Source: Gammaproteobacteria bacterium
GTDB lineage: Bacteria; Pseudomonadota; Gammaproteobacteria; Steroidobacterales; Rariloculaceae
Length of the DNA stretch: 64,000 nt
Assembly (NCBI GenBank): GCA_022826245.1
Contig: JAJDVG010000040.1
Coordinates: forward strand, 1 to 64,000
Direction of reading: 5' to 3'
This document shows, piece after piece, positions 1,041-7,094 of the stretch (position 1 is its first letter; every line of letters begins with the position of its first letter). The notes below the pieces were generated by a model, which worked only from the letters and a program-made list of their open reading frames with translations, was not told the origin of the DNA and made no database searches. The translations under genes were made by a program, and so were the position numbers.

Positions 1041-1286
1041 TCAGGCGGCGTCGATGGCTTCGAAGCGCAGCGTCGGCCGGTCGCCGCGCCTGGAATAGCG
1101 GTGCTCACTGGCCATGTCCTCAAGTGCCGCATCGCGTTCGTCGGCTGTGGCATACCAGTGATAGCGTTCCCAATCCGCGCCGAGCAGACGTGCGAAGGAT
1201 TCCCCGCGCGGCAGGCTGACGCGAATGCCGAACGGCTTCGCCGCCGCGGGCTCGCGGCTCAGATTGTGTGCGTCGCAAATCTCCAT
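1041..1286 (-). CDS. Small conserved protein of unknown function
   Basis: About 81 residues from the ATG at 1286; an in-frame TTG at 1325 would give 94. The sequence has the compact text PFGIRVSLPRGESFARLLG, then DWERYHWYATADERDAALEDM and ends YSRRGDRPTLRFEAID. I have the impression of having seen similar short proteins in other gammaproteobacteria but know no function. It lacks membrane segments, cysteine pairs and a signal peptide. It lies about 80 bases downstream of the kinase gene on the same strand, so co-transcription is likely. No clear Shine-Dalgarno stands before either start. Confidence 0.6.
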   Translation of the reverse strand: MEICDAHNLSREPAAAKPFGIRVSLPRGESFARLLGADWERYHWYATADERDAALEDMASEHRYSRRGDRPTLRFEAIDAA

Positions 1287-1365
1287 GGGCGGGACCGCGT
1301 CAGTGACCGTCGAATCATAGCCCAACGCGCGGGAGGCGGCATGAGTGCGGTCACCGCCGCAGCCC

Positions 1366-2016
1366 TCAACCCAGTTGACGCTCCTCGGCCCCGTCGCGCT
1401 CGGGCCAGCCGAGGAGTCGCCGCGTCACGAAGTGGTATGGGGGTTTGAACAGCATTCGCCAGAGCCGCGCCATGAGCGACGGTCGCGCGAGCAATGCGCG
1501 CTGCCGCCGCGTGAGCGCTTCGGGTAAATAGTGGCGCTTGTGCTTGAGCAGATGGCGCAGGTCCTCGCGTGCGAGCAGGCGAAACCATCGGCCGCGCCGG
1601 GCTGAAACGACGGCGAGCTGGAAATCGACAACGGCCGGGCGCTCTCCGGGCATGCAGATCCAGTTGGCTTCCTTGGCGAGATCGTTGTGGGCGACGCCGC
1701 AGCGGTGCATCCGGAACAGGAGTCTCTGGGCGCGCCGAAAATACTGCCTCGTGACCGGTTGACCGACGTGCATCGGCACGCCGGGCAGCCAGGTCCGTCT
1801 GAGTGCGTGGCCGTCGAAACCGACCAGGCGCGGCGTGCCTGCCTGACCGTCCAGCGCCGCGAGCGCCGCCGCTTCGCGCCGCGCGAGGCTTTCGGCAAGC
1901 CAGCGCAGCCAGCCATGCGCTGACCGCGTATCGCGTACGACTACGGCGGCGCCCCCGTCGACTCCGAGCGCCACCGTGTCGAGACTGTCTCGCTTCAAAA
2001 TTCGCCGGGCGGCCAT
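1366..2016 (-). CDS. RIO1/Kdo-kinase-like small protein kinase
   Basis: A 216-residue kinase-fold protein reduced to the core of the RIO1/WaaP (lipopolysaccharide kinase) group. The catalytic loop reads MHRCGVAHNDLAKEANW (the HxDLxxxN pattern, here HNDLAKEAN), and the metal-binding segment reads VVDFQLAVV, with DFQ in place of DFG. The C-terminal part is basic and ends in a helical RRQRALLARPSLMARLWRML stretch. It lacks a signal peptide and transmembrane segments, so it should be cytosolic, possibly acting on a lipid-linked sugar or a protein at the inner membrane. The glycine-rich loop is weak. Its ATG is only about 16 bases from the preferred start of the divergent ATPase gene, so the two probably share a regulatory region. 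Family call is fairly firm; substrate unknown. Confidence 0.75.
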   Translation of the reverse strand: MAARRILKRDSLDTVALGVDGGAAVVVRDTRSAHGWLRWLAESLARREAAALAALDGQAGTPRLVGFDGHALRRTWLPGVPMHVGQPVTRQYFRRAQRLLFRMHRCGVAHNDLAKEANWICMPGERPAVVDFQLAVVSARRGRWFRLLAREDLRHLLKHKRHYLPEALTRRQRALLARPSLMARLWRMLFKPPYHFVTRRLLGWPERDGAEERQLG

Positions 2017-2019
2017 TGC

Positions 2020-2035
2020 TACAATCCGATCCGTG
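2020..2035 (+). promoter_or_regulatory. TACAAT -10-like element seven bases before a GTG start
   Basis: TACAAT at 2020-2025 is followed by CCGATCC and then GTG at 2033. If it acts as a -10 box, transcription would begin at or next to the start codon, giving a leaderless message for the large ATPase gene. No convincing -35 hexamer at 16-18 bases; TTCAAA at 1994-1999 is 20 bases away. Confidence 0.35.
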
Positions 2036-5000
2036 TCAAGAGTAACGCATGCAGGTGACTTCTTCGTCGTCGGTGGCGCCGTTCTGCCCGACCGGGCCTG
2101 CTACATCGAGCGCCGCGCCGACGAAACGCTGCGGGAGAGCATCGCCGAGCGGCAGTTCTCGTATGTCCTGAGCCCGCGCGCATCGGGCAAGTCGAGCCTC
2201 ATGGCGCGGACGATCGCGAAGCTGCGCCAGGCGAACCAGCTTGCCGCCGTCGTCGACCTGGCGCAGATCGGCGAGCGCAGCGACGGCGACGATGCGGGCC
2301 GCTGGTATTACAGCATCGCCTACCGGGTCCTGCGTGAACTCAGGCTCCGGACGGATCTGCAATCCTGGTGGCAGGACTCGAGCGTCCTGCCCGGCGAGCA
2401 ACGGCTCGTCGAGTTCTTCTCGGAAGTCGTTCTCGCGCATACGATCGAGCCCGTCACGATTTTCGTCGACGAGATCGAGCGCGCCGAAGCGCTGCCATTC
2501 GCCCGGGAACTGTTCTCCGCCATTCGGACCTGTTACGCGCGCCGCGTTTCCGATCCCGATTTCCATCGGCTCAATTTCGTCGTTCTCGGGGTCAGTACGC
2601 CGGCCAGGCTTTGTCCGGACGAGAGCTGGTCGCCGTTCGCCGACGGCCGCGCGATCGAGCTGCCCGATTTCAGCGCGGCGCAATGCCATCGCTTCGCCGC
2701 CGGCTTCGGTCTCGACGAGGAATCCGGCCGCGCACTGATGGACAGGATATACGGCTGGACGCGCGGCCAGCCCTATCTCACGCAGAAGCTCGCGAGGGGC
2801 GTTGCGAGAAAGGGCGCAAAGCTCGCGGATATCGATCGCACCGTACATGAGCTGTTCCTCGTGCCCGGCACGGCGCGCGAGGAGCCGCTGCTCAATCAGA
2901 TACGTGTCCTGCTCACGACGAAGTCCCCGACGACGCGGCAGGCCCTGGCATTGCTCGAACGATTGGGGCGCAAGGCCGAGACCGTTTCGTCGGCGGGTTC
3001 CGCTGCGCGCGAATCGCTGCACCTTGCCGGAATCGCGAGCCCGGAAAGCGGCGGTCGGCTGAGTTACCGCAACCGGATCTACGAGCGCGTGTTCGATGCC
3101 GAATGGGCAGCCGGCGCGCTGCCGATCAACTGGCGCAGGCCCGCCGCGGCCGCGGCCGTACTGGCGGTGCTCGTTCTCGCGCCGATCTGGTACTTCCAGG
3201 TCCTGCCGCAACCGTATATCGCGACGCTGTCGGTCGTGACCGGGGACTACGCGGTCGCGCAGGACGCGTACGAAAACCTGCGCGGCATACCGGGGTTCGC
3301 CGGCCGCGCCGACGGCCTGCTCGCCGAGGCGATGACGCGCCGCAGCCGCTCCGCACGCACGATCGACGAGGTGCTGGCCGCCGATGCCGTGCTCAGAGGC
3401 TTGCCGGATCGCGCCGCGCTTGCCGATGAACTCATGGGCGATTATTGGCTGCGCCGTTCCCGCGATGCGGCCCGTCGCGAACAGCGCGACGAAGCGTTGC
3501 TGCTCGCGGTTCAGGCCTTGCCGGGCCGCCCGGAAGCAGTGCTCGCAACCGCCGCAGAACTCATCGGTTCCGATTATCGACAACTCGAGCGCAGCTTTCG
3601 CTTGACCGAGCCGCCGCTCGACTGGCGGGTCGACTGGCAGCGCGGCGAACTGGTCGTCGTCGATCAGGCTCATCGCGTGCGGCATCTTGCATTGCGCGAG
3701 ACGCCGCGGCGCGCGGCCGCGGCCGACATCGGTTCGGTCGGGCGCATCCCCGGACGCTTGACCGCGCTGCAGCCGGTGCCCGTCGTCCGCGGGCTCGACG
3801 TGCCCGACGGCGGACTGGCCGGGGCGTTCGACCTGCTGCTGACCCTGCGGCACGCCCGGGCGAGCGACCTGCTCGTCACACTGACGGGGCCGAGCGGCGC
3901 CGACGCAACGCTTGCCGTACCGCAGCCACGTGCGGATCAGCAGGCGTTGCGCTTCAGTGCGCGCCCGGGCTCGCCGTTGTTCACGCTGGCCGGGGAGAGC
4001 AGGCGCGGGCCGTGGCGCCTGACCGCCATCGACCGCCGCTCGGGAGAGGTCGGTGTGCTGTTGAGCTGGGGGCTGCAGTTTGCCGGCGACGCCACCGGCT
4101 ACGTGGACACGCCCGAGCAGGGCATCGCGCTTCCCGATCCCCTCAGGACCGACGACGTCGGGATCGATCTCGATGCCGCCGGCCGCATCGCGCTCGCGCG
4201 GCCGACGCGGTCCGGCACGGTCGGTGCGCTTGCCGTGTGGGATCTGCTGGAGGGCGAGCTCGTCGGCGACGTGCAGATGCAATCGCCCGTCGAGCATGTG
4301 GTTTACAGCTCCGCGCACTCGCGCGCGCTCGTCGCGACGGCCGATGCGCTGACGATCTGGGATGTCGGCCGGGAGGCGCCGATTGCGAGCATCGAAGCGC
4401 CCGCGGGGTTCGCGCCGCCGCCGGTGCTCAGCATCGACGGCGGCTACTTCGCGGTCGCCGAGCGGTCCGGTTTCGCGCCGCCGCGTTTCAGTCTCGCACG
4501 CGTCGAGGATGGCGCGGTGGTCGGCGGAGGCACGGGCATTGCGGATGCTGTCGACTGGGTGCTCGGTCCCGGCGCGCGTTACCTTGCCGTGGTCGACTCG
4601 ACGGGAAGTGTGCGCGTCGTGGATCCACGCGGCGGCCGCCAGCTTGCGGATCTGCGCCACTCCCGGTCGATCGAGCGGCTCATTGCCGTGTCCGGTCAGG
4701 ACGTTCTCATTGCGATCGACAGCGCCGGCGATCTGCTGGCGTGGCGGATCGGAGCCGATGCGTCAGGCACTACACTGCCCGAACCGTCGCTGCTGGGCAC
4801 GACGATCGACCCGGCGAGCGTCAGCGTGGCGGCGGACGCCGGGGTGATCGCTTTCGAGGCGTCGCCCGGCCACGTGCAGGTCCGCGACCTTGGCGGCGAA
4901 ACGAGTCCGGGCTACTTCCGTCTCGATCCGGGCGTCGTGACGCGGCTCTCGGCGGACGGCCGGCAGATGCTGACCGTGACCGGCGATACGGTGTTTCGGC

Positions 5001-6046
5001 TGTGGACACTCGATCGGCGCGAGTCCGGGCTCACGCCGGATCCGGGACTGTCGGCACTTGCGCGCGACTCCGACGGCGGGACCGTGGCGCTCGGCTATCG
5101 CGGCGGACATGTGCGAATTCTCCACGTCGAAGAACTGCAGGAAGCCGCCGCGGTCGCCGACAGTGTCGATTTCATCGGTCATCGGGGCACCGTCACGAGC
5201 CTCGCGCTGAACGCGGCGAGCGGCATCATCGCCAGCGGCGGCGCCGACGGTGTCGTTCGTGTCTGGGATGCGGCCAGCGTCGCGCCGAATCCGGAGTTCA
5301 TGCGTCATCCTGCAGGTCCGGTACGCGCGGTCGAGATCAGCGCCGACGGCCGCTGGATCGTCAGCGCCGCGGAATATTCCGCCAGAGTCTGGTCAGCGAA
5401 CGACGGCGAGCTGGTCGGCGAGATCCCCGTCAACGGTACGGCGCTCGCGGTCGCGTTGTCGCCCGACGCAGAGCTCATTGCGGTCGGCGACAGCGCGGGC
5501 AACGTGTTCTTCGGCGCGCCGAGGGGGTCGGAGCCGCTGCAGTCGACGCGTACGCAGGCCGCCGTCAGGGCGGTTGAGTTCTCGCCTGATGCGACGCTCT
5601 TCGCGACCGGCGATGACGCCGGCGGTCTTCAGCTCTGGGACGCGGGCACGGCGCTGTCGCGCGGTGCGCCGAGCGTGTTTCCGCACGCGGTCGAGTGGCT
5701 GGATTTCAGTCCCGACGGGCGCTTCGTGCTCGCTCGCAGCGGTCACTGGATGCACCGTCTGGAGCTGACCGAAGCGGGCCTCGCGATCATCGATACGCGC
5801 CTGCTGCCTGTCGGGCTCGAGGCGGACGCCGTGCTCGCGGGCACGCAGGGGGAGGCCGTGCGCCTCGCCGGCGGCCGGGAAACGGGCCGCACGGCGTTTC
5901 AGACCCTCGATCTGACCCGGCCGGCCGAACCGCCGCTGCCGGAAGATTCTCCGCAGCTCGCGCGCGACTGGGAGGCGGTCCTAGGCCTGACGCTCGATAC
6001 CCGCACCGGCCTGGTCCGCGGTTCCTTCCAGCCCGATCGCCGCTGA
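2033..6046 (+). CDS. AAA-like ATPase / transmembrane / P-domain / WD40 fusion protein
   Basis: About 1337 residues from GTG 2033 (the track uses ATG 1976, which overlaps the divergent kinase). Order seen: residues 1-330, an AAA-like ATPase of the type found in large bacterial signalling proteins, opening FFVVGGAVLPDRACYIERRADE. It has a Walker A-like SPRASGKSS around residue 50 and a Walker B-like VTIFVDEIE around 150. At about 371-392 is one membrane segment (AVLAVLVLAPIWYFQVL) preceded by WRR, which favours N-in orientation. At about 392-560 is a helical region, and at about 580-690 a proprotein-convertase P-domain-like beta domain (SDLLVTLTGPSG, GPWRLTAIDRRSGEVG, WGLQFAG). From about 700 to the end come WD40-like blades (LAVWDLLEGE, LTIWDVGRE, VRVWDAASV, LQLWDAGTA). 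The topology places the P-domain and propeller in the periplasm. Function unknown; a sensor or conflict role is inference. Confidence 0.75.
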   Translation: MSRVTHAGDFFVVGGAVLPDRACYIERRADETLRESIAERQFSYVLSPRASGKSSLMARTIAKLRQANQLAAVVDLAQIGERSDGDDAGRWYYSIAYRVLRELRLRTDLQSWWQDSSVLPGEQRLVEFFSEVVLAHTIEPVTIFVDEIERAEALPFARELFSAIRTCYARRVSDPDFHRLNFVVLGVSTPARLCPDESWSPFADGRAIELPDFSAAQCHRFAAGFGLDEESGRALMDRIYGWTRGQPYLTQKLARGVARKGAKLADIDRTVHELFLVPGTAREEPLLNQIRVLLTTKSPTTRQALALLERLGRKAETVSSAGSAARESLHLAGIASPESGGRLSYRNRIYERVFDAEWAAGALPINWRRPAAAAAVLAVLVLAPIWYFQVLPQPYIATLSVVTGDYAVAQDAYENLRGIPGFAGRADGLLAEAMTRRSRSARTIDEVLAADAVLRGLPDRAALADELMGDYWLRRSRDAARREQRDEALLLAVQALPGRPEAVLATAAELIGSDYRQLERSFRLTEPPLDWRVDWQRGELVVVDQAHRVRHLALRETPRRAAAADIGSVGRIPGRLTALQPVPVVRGLDVPDGGLAGAFDLLLTLRHARASDLLVTLTGPSGADATLAVPQPRADQQALRFSARPGSPLFTLAGESRRGPWRLTAIDRRSGEVGVLLSWGLQFAGDATGYVDTPEQGIALPDPLRTDDVGIDLDAAGRIALARPTRSGTVGALAVWDLLEGELVGDVQMQSPVEHVVYSSAHSRALVATADALTIWDVGREAPIASIEAPAGFAPPPVLSIDGGYFAVAERSGFAPPRFSLARVEDGAVVGGGTGIADAVDWVLGPGARYLAVVDSTGSVRVVDPRGGRQLADLRHSRSIERLIAVSGQDVLIAIDSAGDLLAWRIGADASGTTLPEPSLLGTTIDPASVSVAADAGVIAFEASPGHVQVRDLGGETSPGYFRLDPGVVTRLSADGRQMLTVTGDTVFRLWTLDRRESGLTPDPGLSALARDSDGGTVALGYRGGHVRILHVEELQEAAAVADSVDFIGHRGTVTSLALNAASGIIASGGADGVVRVWDAASVAPNPEFMRHPAGPVRAVEISADGRWIVSAAEYSARVWSANDGELVGEIPVNGTALAVALSPDAELIAVGDSAGNVFFGAPRGSEPLQSTRTQAAVRAVEFSPDATLFATGDDAGGLQLWDAGTALSRGAPSVFPHAVEWLDFSPDGRFVLARSGHWMHRLELTEAGLAIIDTRLLPVGLEADAVLAGTQGEAVRLAGGRETGRTAFQTLDLTRPAEPPLPEDSPQLARDWEAVLGLTLDTRTGLVRGSFQPDRR

Positions 6047-6152
6047 CGGTACTGCGACGGCACGATTTCCGCGCACCCGTTCGTGGTATAGATACACACC
6101 CGTAGTGCGACTCCCCGCACCATCCACATCAACAGCGCGAGGAGCAGGAACG

Positions 6153-7094
6153 ATGTCAGCGACAGCCGTCTTGGTCTGCGGACCGGAGATCGCCTCGTAC
6201 GGCTTTCCTGACGGGCACCCATTTGGCACGTCCAGGCACGACACGTTCATTGACGAACTCGAGAAGTCCGAGTGCTGGGACCGGCTCGAGCGCATTTCGG
6301 CGCGACAGGCCACGCGCGGGGAACTGGAGTACTTCCATACGCCGGCTTACGTCGATCGGGTGATCGAGATGTCGCGCATCGGCAGCGGCTTTCTCGACCT
6401 CGGCGACACGCCGGCTTACGCGGGCGTGTACGAGAATGCCGCGTTCGTCGTCGGCGGAACGCTCAATGCGCTCGAATCGATCATGACGGGCCCGATTCCG
6501 CGCGCGTTCATCCCGATCGGCGGTCTGCACCACGCGGCGCGCGATTCGGCGGCAGGGTTCTGCGTGTTCAACGACTGCGGCATCGCCATTGAGGCCGCGC
6601 GGCGCCACCATGGATTGACGCGTGTCGCCTACGTCGATATCGACGCGCACCACGGCGACGGCGTCTTCTACGGTTTCGAGGACGATCCGGACGTGATCTT
6701 CGCCGACTTGCACGAGGACGGCCGCTTCCTCTACCCCGGCACCGGTTCGCGCGACGAGACCGGCAAGGGCGCCGCTGCCGGCACGAAACTCAACGTGCCG
6801 ATGCTGCCGGGGGCCGGGGATCAGCATTTCCTGCAGGCCTGGGAGGAAGTCGAGCGTTTCCTCGAGGATCATCCGCCCGAACTGATCCTGCTGCAGTGCG
6901 GCGCCGACTCGCTCGGCGGCGATCCGATCACGCACCTGGCCTACACCGAGGAAGCCCACGCGCACGCGGCAGTGAGGCTCCGGAAGCTTGCCGACCGCCA
7001 CTGCGGCGGACGGGTTCTGGCGATGGGCGGCGGCGGGTACAACCCGTACAACCTGGCGCGGGCCTGGACGCGTGTCGTCGAGGCGCTGGCCTGA
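6153..7094 (+). CDS. Histone-deacetylase-family (AcuC/HDAC-like) deacetylase
   Basis: A 313-residue arginase/deacetylase-fold protein. The zinc and catalytic segments are clear: GGLHHAARDSAAGFCVFND (the paired-histidine active site) and VAYVDIDAHHGDGVFYGF (Asp and His zinc ligands), then GADSLGGDP and GGGGYNP near the end. Such enzymes remove acyl groups from lysines, polyamines or small amide substrates with zinc. No signal peptide, so cytosolic. The start at 6153 was chosen because AGGAG lies nine bases upstream; the track's ATG at 6105 adds a low-complexity leader. It precedes glyA by 22 bases and may be co-transcribed with it. The exact substrate cannot be read from sequence. Confidence 0.88.
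   Translation: MSATAVLVCGPEIASYGFPDGHPFGTSRHDTFIDELEKSECWDRLERISARQATRGELEYFHTPAYVDRVIEMSRIGSGFLDLGDTPAYAGVYENAAFVVGGTLNALESIMTGPIPRAFIPIGGLHHAARDSAAGFCVFNDCGIAIEAARRHHGLTRVAYVDIDAHHGDGVFYGFEDDPDVIFADLHEDGRFLYPGTGSRDETGKGAAAGTKLNVPMLPGAGDQHFLQAWEEVERFLEDHPPELILLQCGADSLGGDPITHLAYTEEAHAHAAVRLRKLADRHCGGRVLAMGGGGYNPYNLARAWTRVVEALA

Follow-up and report, generated by a model that had tools for sequence, protein, structure and literature searches.

The locus at positions 2033-6046 of the window, the 64,000-nucleotide stretch of DNA that was analysed, raises the question of what a single polypeptide with an ATPase, a membrane segment, a P-domain and WD40 blades might do. The P-domain is usually part of secreted proteases. 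The first-pass annotation had read these domains in this order and had proposed a transmembrane signalling or capture machine. The order was borne out by Pfam and AlphaFold2: AAA_35 and P_proprotein matched above the Pfam cut-offs together with many WD40/beta-propeller matches, and the confident models contained both the P-domain and the membrane helix.

Gene, domain layout and topology

The reading frame was already open from 1976, upstream of the GTG at 2033, which is a plausible start codon, and the stop was located at 6046. Of 196 genomes from one gammaproteobacterial order (Woeseiaceae and Ca. Rariloculus), 93 carried a full-length orthologue in single copy, while none were found beyond this order in class and phylum samples. 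Each carrier genome contained one AAA_35 protein (split genes not counted). The gene is real and ancient, and is carried in single copy by one order of bacteria from the sea and from sponges. The whole layout was kept in 21 aligned orthologues with 28-77% identity (in one of them, L037, an assembly gap spans the membrane helix), which indicated that the domain combination is not due to chance. Computation showed that the whole protein, consisting of STAND module, membrane helix, arm and double propeller with P-domain, was conserved as one unit. Across the ATPase, the P-domain and the propellers, comparison with a same-genus relative gave dN/dS values of 0.20-0.27. The mean column identity was 41% in the sensor part versus 57% in the ATP part, so the sensor part was diverging faster. 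No promoter or terminator signal exceeded the level of shuffled sequence. Apart from this order, four AAA_35 proteins were seen scattered through Gammaproteobacteria. The features of the gene were as follows.

2033-6046, plus strand: whole gene, 1337 aa, plausible GTG start at 2033 (ORF and full-length orthologues)
2057-3106, plus strand: STAND nucleotide module with nucleotide-binding domain, helical domain (HD) and winged helix, residues about 9-358 (Pfam, AlphaFold2, Foldseek)
2171-2197, plus strand: Walker A, SPRASGKSS, residues 47-55 (G52, K53)
2765-2773, plus strand: GxP motif G245-Q246-P247, opening the third HD helix, Gly and Pro invariant
3134-3202, plus strand: single membrane helix, residues 368-390, Arg-Arg at its N-terminal end (helix 360-382 in model numbering)
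3248-3565, plus strand: arm-like domain, six helices as three hairpins, residues about 406-511 (AlphaFold2 model)
3578-3697, plus strand: first propeller blade, four-stranded, residues about 516-555 (AlphaFold2 model)
3734-4081, plus strand: P-domain, residues about 568-683, after blade 1 (Pfam, PDB profile matches, model)
4094-5923, plus strand: remaining blades, about 13, residues about 688-1297 (Pfam WD40, model, Foldseek)

Pfam AAA_35 (PF14516) matched residues 16-264 (E 8e-26, 91.1 bits against a cut-off of 27) and was detected in 21/21 orthologues. The Gly and Lys of Walker A (G52/K53) were invariant in the alignments of 21 and of 49 orthologues. In the 21 aligned orthologues the Walker B residue D146 was also invariant, and the second acidic residue of Walker B was variable. 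Two AlphaFold2 models were obtained with pLDDT of 89.8 (nucleotide module) and 90.8. The GxP motif, a STAND hallmark (PMC6468293), was placed where helix 239-251 (model numbering) begins, and the HD was followed by a winged-helix domain with helices and a wing hairpin (model residues 258-354). Foldseek matches across the whole ATP module were 2qen, SSO1545, CED-4, MalT and Avs3, and ORC/Cdc6-type AAA+ proteins were included as well. As judged from the predicted structure, the nearest folds are the STAND proteins SSO1545, CED-4, MalT and Avs3. Based on these fold matches, the GxP motif and the winged helix, the annotated ATPase domain was retained but read as a STAND nucleotide switch, not as a generic AAA machine. 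An arm followed by a repeat-type sensor, as expected of a STAND protein, was also seen in the AlphaFold2 models, but beyond a membrane helix. STAND NTPases generally, though not universally, carry an effector domain at one end. Here AAA_35 begins within the first 16 residues and no domain was found by Pfam after the propellers, so an effector domain is absent.

The annotated single membrane segment with positive residues on its N-side was confirmed. The hydropathy peak AAAVLAVLVLAPIWYFQVL, with a Kyte-Doolittle mean of 2.16, was the only one above 1.6 in the protein, and it was immediately preceded by NWRRPAA. The hydrophobic stretch was conserved in the alignment of 21 orthologues, and some orthologues stayed below the hydropathy threshold of the scan. 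A positive-inside bias around the helix was found in 53/70 orthologues, while the flanking K/R counts were equal in 13/70 and reversed in 4/70. Independent support for the topology came from the near-absence of cysteines after the helix, where 5 were counted in 81,360 residues of 88 orthologues, compared with 193 in 19,087 residues of the ATPase part. The cysteine distribution, hydropathy and models agreed with the annotated architecture, a cytosolic ATPase connected across the membrane with a P-domain and propeller outside. It was strongly inferred that the ATP module faces the cytosol, with the arm, P-domain and propellers lying in the periplasm. The protein looks like Apaf-1, the switch of apoptosis, split by the membrane, with the ATP switch inside and the sensor propellers, which bear a small protease-type P-domain, outside.

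For the outer part, the arm-like label was based on the STAND arms described in PMC6468293. Pfam P_proprotein (PF01483) matched residues 603-683 (E 2e-9, 37.9 bits against a cut-off of 21) and was found in 85/88 isolated orthologue P-domain segments. The profile matches of the P-domain in PDB were a serine protease and the kexin and furin P-domains, while no peptidase family (S8 protease domain) was among the Pfam matches listed for the protein. WD40/beta-propeller matches were best at about 970-1240. Foldseek matched tandem WD40 proteins, including Apaf-1, to the propeller part. With blade 1 included, the modelled strands would suffice for two seven-bladed WD40 propellers, a blade number obtained from strand counting rather than coordinates. 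Both the P-domain and the propeller were present as annotated, but not in simple succession, because in the model the P-domain appears to be inserted behind the first blade.

Neighbouring genes and the EexN-type lipoprotein

The locus is surrounded by housekeeping genes, which together with the purifying selection on the gene argues against a mobile defence gene. Two genes lie upstream on the opposite strand.

1366-2016, minus strand: divergently oriented small gene resembling protein kinases (sub-cut-off matches to NCBIfam kinase families)
1041-1325, minus strand: small uncharacterised gene, locus marker across the order, without Pfam match

Both were rejected as specific partners: the kinase-like gene was present in 15/31 carriers and 7/27 non-carriers (Fisher p 0.11), and the 1041-1325 gene was found almost order-wide (47/58 genomes). 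Directly downstream in the window was a histone-deacetylase-like gene (6105-7094), ahead of which an ABC-F gene stands in two same-genus relatives. In Woeseiaceae-type loci the neighbours included a patatin-OMP gene, an MFS-acyltransferase fusion, YSC84, MscS, M48 and an EexN-type lipoprotein, and the lipid-related ones were not conserved beside the gene of the window.

The EexN-type lipoprotein gene was located directly downstream of the big gene in many relatives (15 loci). Among 58 genomes, it occurred in 22/31 with the big gene versus 0/27 of the others, as raw co-occurrence, and the genus of the window, like some other carriers, does not have it. Four members scored 38.3-43.9 bits against NCBIfam NF033894 (cut-off 33), and this assignment to the EexN family does not imply entry-exclusion activity.

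Possible roles of the protein

Of the signalling or capture machine proposed at first, signalling fits the anatomy and capture found no support. We consider it somewhat probable that the protein is a transmembrane STAND-type ATP switch serving as an envelope sensor. The domain families, the confident models, the nearest folds, the invariant Walker A and GxP, the cysteine distribution, the positive-inside bias, the AAA_35-TM-CHASE2 parallel, the lipoprotein adjacency and its restriction to genomes with the big gene, and the faster divergence of the sensor part were counted in favour of this reading. Counted against it were the missing lipoprotein in the window's genus and some carriers, the ORC/Cdc6-type fold matches, the housekeeping neighbourhood without direct functional hint, and the variable second acidic residue of Walker B. 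The analogy to Apaf-1, MalT and other STANDs suggests that the propellers and P-domain would bind a periplasmic or outer-membrane signal, perhaps joined in many relatives by the EexN-type lipoprotein encoded next door; the induced change would travel through the single membrane helix, and the cytosolic module might then swap ADP for ATP and cluster. In well-studied STANDs with WD40, LRR or TPR sensors, the off state is held by direct contact of sensor or arm with the ATP module (PMC6468293). In the big protein the membrane, lying between winged helix and arm, should separate the sensor from the ATP module and make this contact lock impossible, so another way of locking and triggering would be needed, with clustering or helix movement carrying the signal. 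Lacking an effector domain, the ATP module presumably recruits another protein once it has clustered.

This sensor might also be given a more specific form, a trans-envelope STAND receptor in which an outer-membrane lipoprotein joins the double propeller and P-domain of the periplasm to gate the cytosolic ATP switch via one helix, which we put forward tentatively and hold to be rather doubtful. If true, it would represent STAND control without sensor-NOD contact, in a core gene fixed across a large part of an order whose members live in sediments and sponges. The P-domain known from secreted proteases would be placed in an ATP-switch receptor, and the EexN-type lipoprotein would be a named candidate partner in little-studied marine bacteria. 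The conserved core protein offers a clean test case for STAND control across a membrane.

The absent cytosolic effector domain and the Woeseiaceae-type neighbours listed above would also suit an inside-out machine, in which the ATP module acts on the periplasmic scaffold of propellers and P-domain, driving or arranging it without inward signal, for example in organising envelope lipid or lipoprotein partners. This is unlikely, since the module is of STAND switch rather than motor type, a single membrane helix makes a poor lever for sustained work, and conservation of the lipid-related neighbours does not extend to the window's gene. Still less probable is an Avs-like anti-phage or conflict STAND that sets off a response once it has recognised part of an invader: the gene is single-copy, vertically inherited and core at a fixed housekeeping locus, has no effector domain, and its sensor part is under purifying selection and on the wrong membrane side for most phage components. 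The STAND fold with Avs3 among its matches, and plasmid AAA_35 relatives paired with TIR-AAA_35 genes, speak for this role, but the only PADLOC match, HEAT-ARM_XIII at residues 1092-1204, was confined to WD40 blades. The least probable reading was a wholly cytosolic Apaf-1-like switch in which the hydrophobic stretch does not form a membrane helix. Most WD40 proteins reside in the cytosol, and the orthologues with equal or reversed K/R counts or with hydropathy below the threshold are consistent with such a switch; the scarcity of cysteines after the helix in 88 orthologues, the positive-inside bias and the conserved hydrophobic stretch argue against it.

Comparison with known systems

The eukaryotic STAND proteins Apaf-1 and CED-4 share the STAND ATP module and helical arm with the big protein, and Apaf-1 also the double WD40 propeller. 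However, they work in the cytosol and carry a CARD effector domain at the N-terminus, whereas the big protein has no effector domain, an extra membrane helix between winged helix and arm, and a P-domain in the propeller. The prokaryotic STANDs MalT (a fold match) and PH0952 share NBD-HD-winged helix, GxP and a three-hairpin arm, but are soluble with a TPR sensor, and arm and sensor lock their ATP module by direct contact (PMC6468293). The P-domain is homologous to that of subtilisin/kexin proteases of the same order (L041-L046; family profile E 1e-13 to 1e-17), and the kexin and furin P-domains matched the family profile with E 0.002-0.005. In L041-L046, which are proteases, the P-domain is C-terminal, while the big protein has no protease domain. 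The EACC2 two-gene systems (PMC8195603), some with CHASE2, were rejected because the caspase core is missing in the big protein.

The layout of an AAA_35-TM-sensor receptor, as found here, is known from cyanobacteria. The AAA_35-TM-WD40 order occurs in Ca. Chlorohelix allophototropha (WP_341471937.1) and cyanobacterial relatives (such as BAY59541.1), in which the ATP module is 30-36% identical to that of the big protein over about 350 residues; the earlier statement that AAA-like/WD40 fusions are usually cytosolic was therefore too strong. Different from the big gene, which is core and chromosomal, these are plasmid-borne, lack the P-domain (family profile) and have a second AAA_35 gene upstream, and in the cyanobacterial ones the membrane helix is about 90 residues further on. 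Such a second gene, also typical of tandem cassettes (TIR/HTH-AAA_35 beside AAA_35-TM-sensor), is not present here. Planktothrix WP_042158336.1 (AAA_35-TM-CHASE2) has AAA_35, membrane helix and extracytoplasmic sensor in the same order, with a CHASE2 sensor and further membrane helices instead of propeller or P-domain. Literature searches for AAA_35 with WD40 yielded one paper, on sigma factors, and those for P_proprotein together with WD40 and AAA yielded none. The general plan is thus not new, as AAA_35-TM-WD40 and AAA_35-TM-CHASE2 proteins exist in Chloroflexota and cyanobacteria; new here are the P-domain insertion, the core-gene status and the lipoprotein link.

Domain layout and predicted structure

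The genes considered here were as follows (window coordinates).
2033-6046, + strand: big gene, 1337 aa
1366-2016, - strand: divergent kinase gene
1041-1325, - strand: small gene (c1)

The reading frame of the big gene ran uninterrupted from 1976 up to its stop at 6046, with a workable start at GTG 2033. The alternative GTG 1976 would run into the divergent kinase gene (start at 2016), and the conserved block of the relatives began at about codon 9 in the orthologue alignment. Only 17 nt lay between the kinase start and GTG 2033, with TACAAT at 2020-2025 in between; the transcript may be leaderless, or translation may begin at a later codon.

The AAA-like ATPase, membrane segment, P-domain and WD40 layout described in the first-pass annotation proved to be real. 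Pfam searches returned AAA_35 (residues 16-264), P_proprotein (603-683) and WD40/propeller matches, and a hydrophobic helix came right after NWRR. No peptidase or effector domain was found among the Pfam matches listed, and the NCBIfam search gave no family matches. The orthologue alignments were folded as two pieces, and the lone helix, the P-domain and the blade strands were all present in the models. In the model of residues 9-395 (49 rows; pLDDT 89.8, pTM 0.85), a nucleotide-binding domain led into three HD helices and a winged helix bearing a wing hairpin, followed by the lone helix at 368-390. Residues 398-1326 (88 rows; pLDDT 90.8, pTM 0.88) formed, in order, six helices as three hairpins, a four-stranded blade, the P-domain and about 52 strands. 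Counted on the DSSP string, 4 + 52 strands gave 14 blades, and therefore a pair of seven-bladed propellers, the P-domain being an insertion behind blade 1. In Foldseek, the ATP module was closest to 2qen and SSO1545 (TM 0.59-0.60 for the two), in a list that also held CED-4, MalT, Avs3 and ORC/Cdc6, and the 398-1326 model matched tandem WD40 propellers, with Apaf-1 among the best. The P-domain segment profile matched an extracellular serine protease (3hjr, E 1e-8), kexin and furin, in each case at the P-domain, and Pfam called the domain in 85 of 88 orthologue segments.

Membrane topology

The N-side of the helix, noted earlier as positively charged, carried more K/R than the other side in 53 of the 70 orthologues that the scoring script could handle (equal in 13, fewer in 4). 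Stronger topology evidence was the cysteine skew: 193 Cys in 19,087 residues before the helix against 5 in 81,360 after it, compared with 0.9-1.7% in cytosolic neighbour families and 0.16-0.20% in two exported families. Taken together, these sequence biases support the suggested cytosolic ATPase joined across the membrane to a P-domain and propeller: very probably, the ATP module lies in the cytosol, with the arm, P-domain and propellers in the periplasm. If this topology holds, the membrane would sit between winged helix and arm, so that the sensor-NOD and arm-NOD contacts (NOD, STAND nucleotide module) locking other STAND proteins could not form. A periplasm-facing ATP switch is the likely, but unproven, mode of working.

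Distribution, descent and a candidate partner

Full-length, single-copy orthologues were found in the genus of the window, that of Ca. Rariloculus versatilis (G002:C28 and contig JAQAJI010000013.1, with the gene at the same place), and across the order, in 93 of 196 genomes (71 of the 146 good ones) from families f1-f4, f6, f9, f11 and f15. A loose search matched 36 of 58 relatives, 31 of them orthologues by profile. Outside the order, none was found at E 1e-20 in samples of the class (274 genomes) and phylum (299), and a GTDB contig scan returned mostly Woeseiaceae and other gammaproteobacterial MAGs. AAA_35 was rare in the class (7/369, of which three were members of this family); within the order, carrier genomes had a single one apiece, bar one gene split across two contigs. 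Identity dropped with kinship, from 75-77% within the genus to about 38-52% within the family and about 31-41% within the order, as for vertical descent. Against a same-genus relative, dN/dS was 0.20 for the ATP module, 0.27 for the P-domain and 0.23 for the propellers. Small-genome members of the same family (L178, L179, L180, L182) lacked the gene with flanking genes intact. Such sites kept the order ilv-proB-proA-c21-c1-[gap]-MscS, with about 90-150 bp from c1 to the MscS-like gene; since the neighbours were kept in order around the gap, loss was more likely than late gain.

The locus was set among housekeeping genes, as were those of homologues; Woeseiaceae-type neighbours, named from sequence reading, included patatin-OMP, an MFS-acyltransferase fusion, YSC84, MscS and M48. 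Function is not readable from this neighbourhood alone. The family of the small gene, whose members have about 80-95 aa with W, H, Y, R and D residues that never vary and match nothing in Pfam or NCBIfam, marked the locus in the order even where the big gene was gone. A same-genus genome also held a second, broken partial copy with one internal TGA (G001:C8:87887-88063), about 760 bp past the intact one.

The one standout among the neighbours was a lipoprotein, about 150-270 aa long, whose N-terminus is of the EexN family (38-44 bits, cut-off 33) and whose tail is helical and charged. In 15 loci (the same genome counted twice in some) its gene came next in the same direction, 36-140 nt away, and in about 43 another gene lay in between. 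By profile, 22 of 31 carriers of the big gene had it, versus 0 of 27 non-carriers (Fisher p 5e-9, a test that ignores shared ancestry, with few independent events). As controls, the divergent kinase was found in 15/31 versus 7/27, and the small gene in 47/58 genomes overall. In E. coli, lipoproteins without Asp after the lipobox Cys are sorted to the outer membrane; none of 58 cases had Asp directly there, which by this rule would mean outer-membrane sorting. The profile search did not find this lipoprotein in the genus of the window, so it can be put forward as a candidate partner of the family but not of the window's copy.

Comparison with known systems

In STAND proteins, NBD-HD, with GxP located in helix H7, is joined by a winged helix specific to the class, by an arm, which in PH0952 consists of three helical hairpins, and by a sensor made of repeats (PMC6468293). 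All these elements were found in the big-gene protein, and its orthologues shared invariant Walker A Gly and Lys, Walker B Asp and G[QH]P ahead of the third HD helix; the customary effector domain, in contrast, was absent.

The earlier remark that the protein could not be matched to a described system held only in part, as AAA_35-helix-WD40/CHASE2 precedents exist, none of them with a P-domain match. The nearest ATP-part matches in PLSDB came from Ca. Chlorohelix, Abditibacteriota and cyanobacteria (30-36% identity). Four of these loci (L170, L172, L173 and L175) showed the same AAA_35, membrane helix and WD40 order, the AAA_35 of L170 being assigned from annotation and a tblastn match and not among the Pfam matches listed. 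L176 (Planktothrix) had CHASE2 in place of WD40, and L171 combined AAA_35 with PAS/GAF but lacked a helix around the corresponding place. A second AAA_35 gene stood just upstream in 6 of 7 fetched plasmid loci (L170-L173, L175, L176), overlapping or at most 10 nt apart. The first gene of the pair carried AAA_35, either by itself or joined to TIR (in two loci), HTH (in two) or both, and the second AAA_35 with helix and WD40/CHASE2, or with PAS/GAF. These pairs look like sensor-effector cassettes; no second AAA_35 gene was found in the carrier genomes searched in the window's order. The P-domain profile matched none of these six PLSDB relatives, but did match proteases from the window's order. 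That order has secreted proteases of the subtilisin-like kind that end in a P-domain (L041-L046), and proteases of this type are a possible source of the insertion. The big-gene protein belongs with the STAND/AAA_35 transmembrane proteins, and what is new against these precedents is the P-domain insertion, the core-gene status in one order and the candidate lipoprotein partner.
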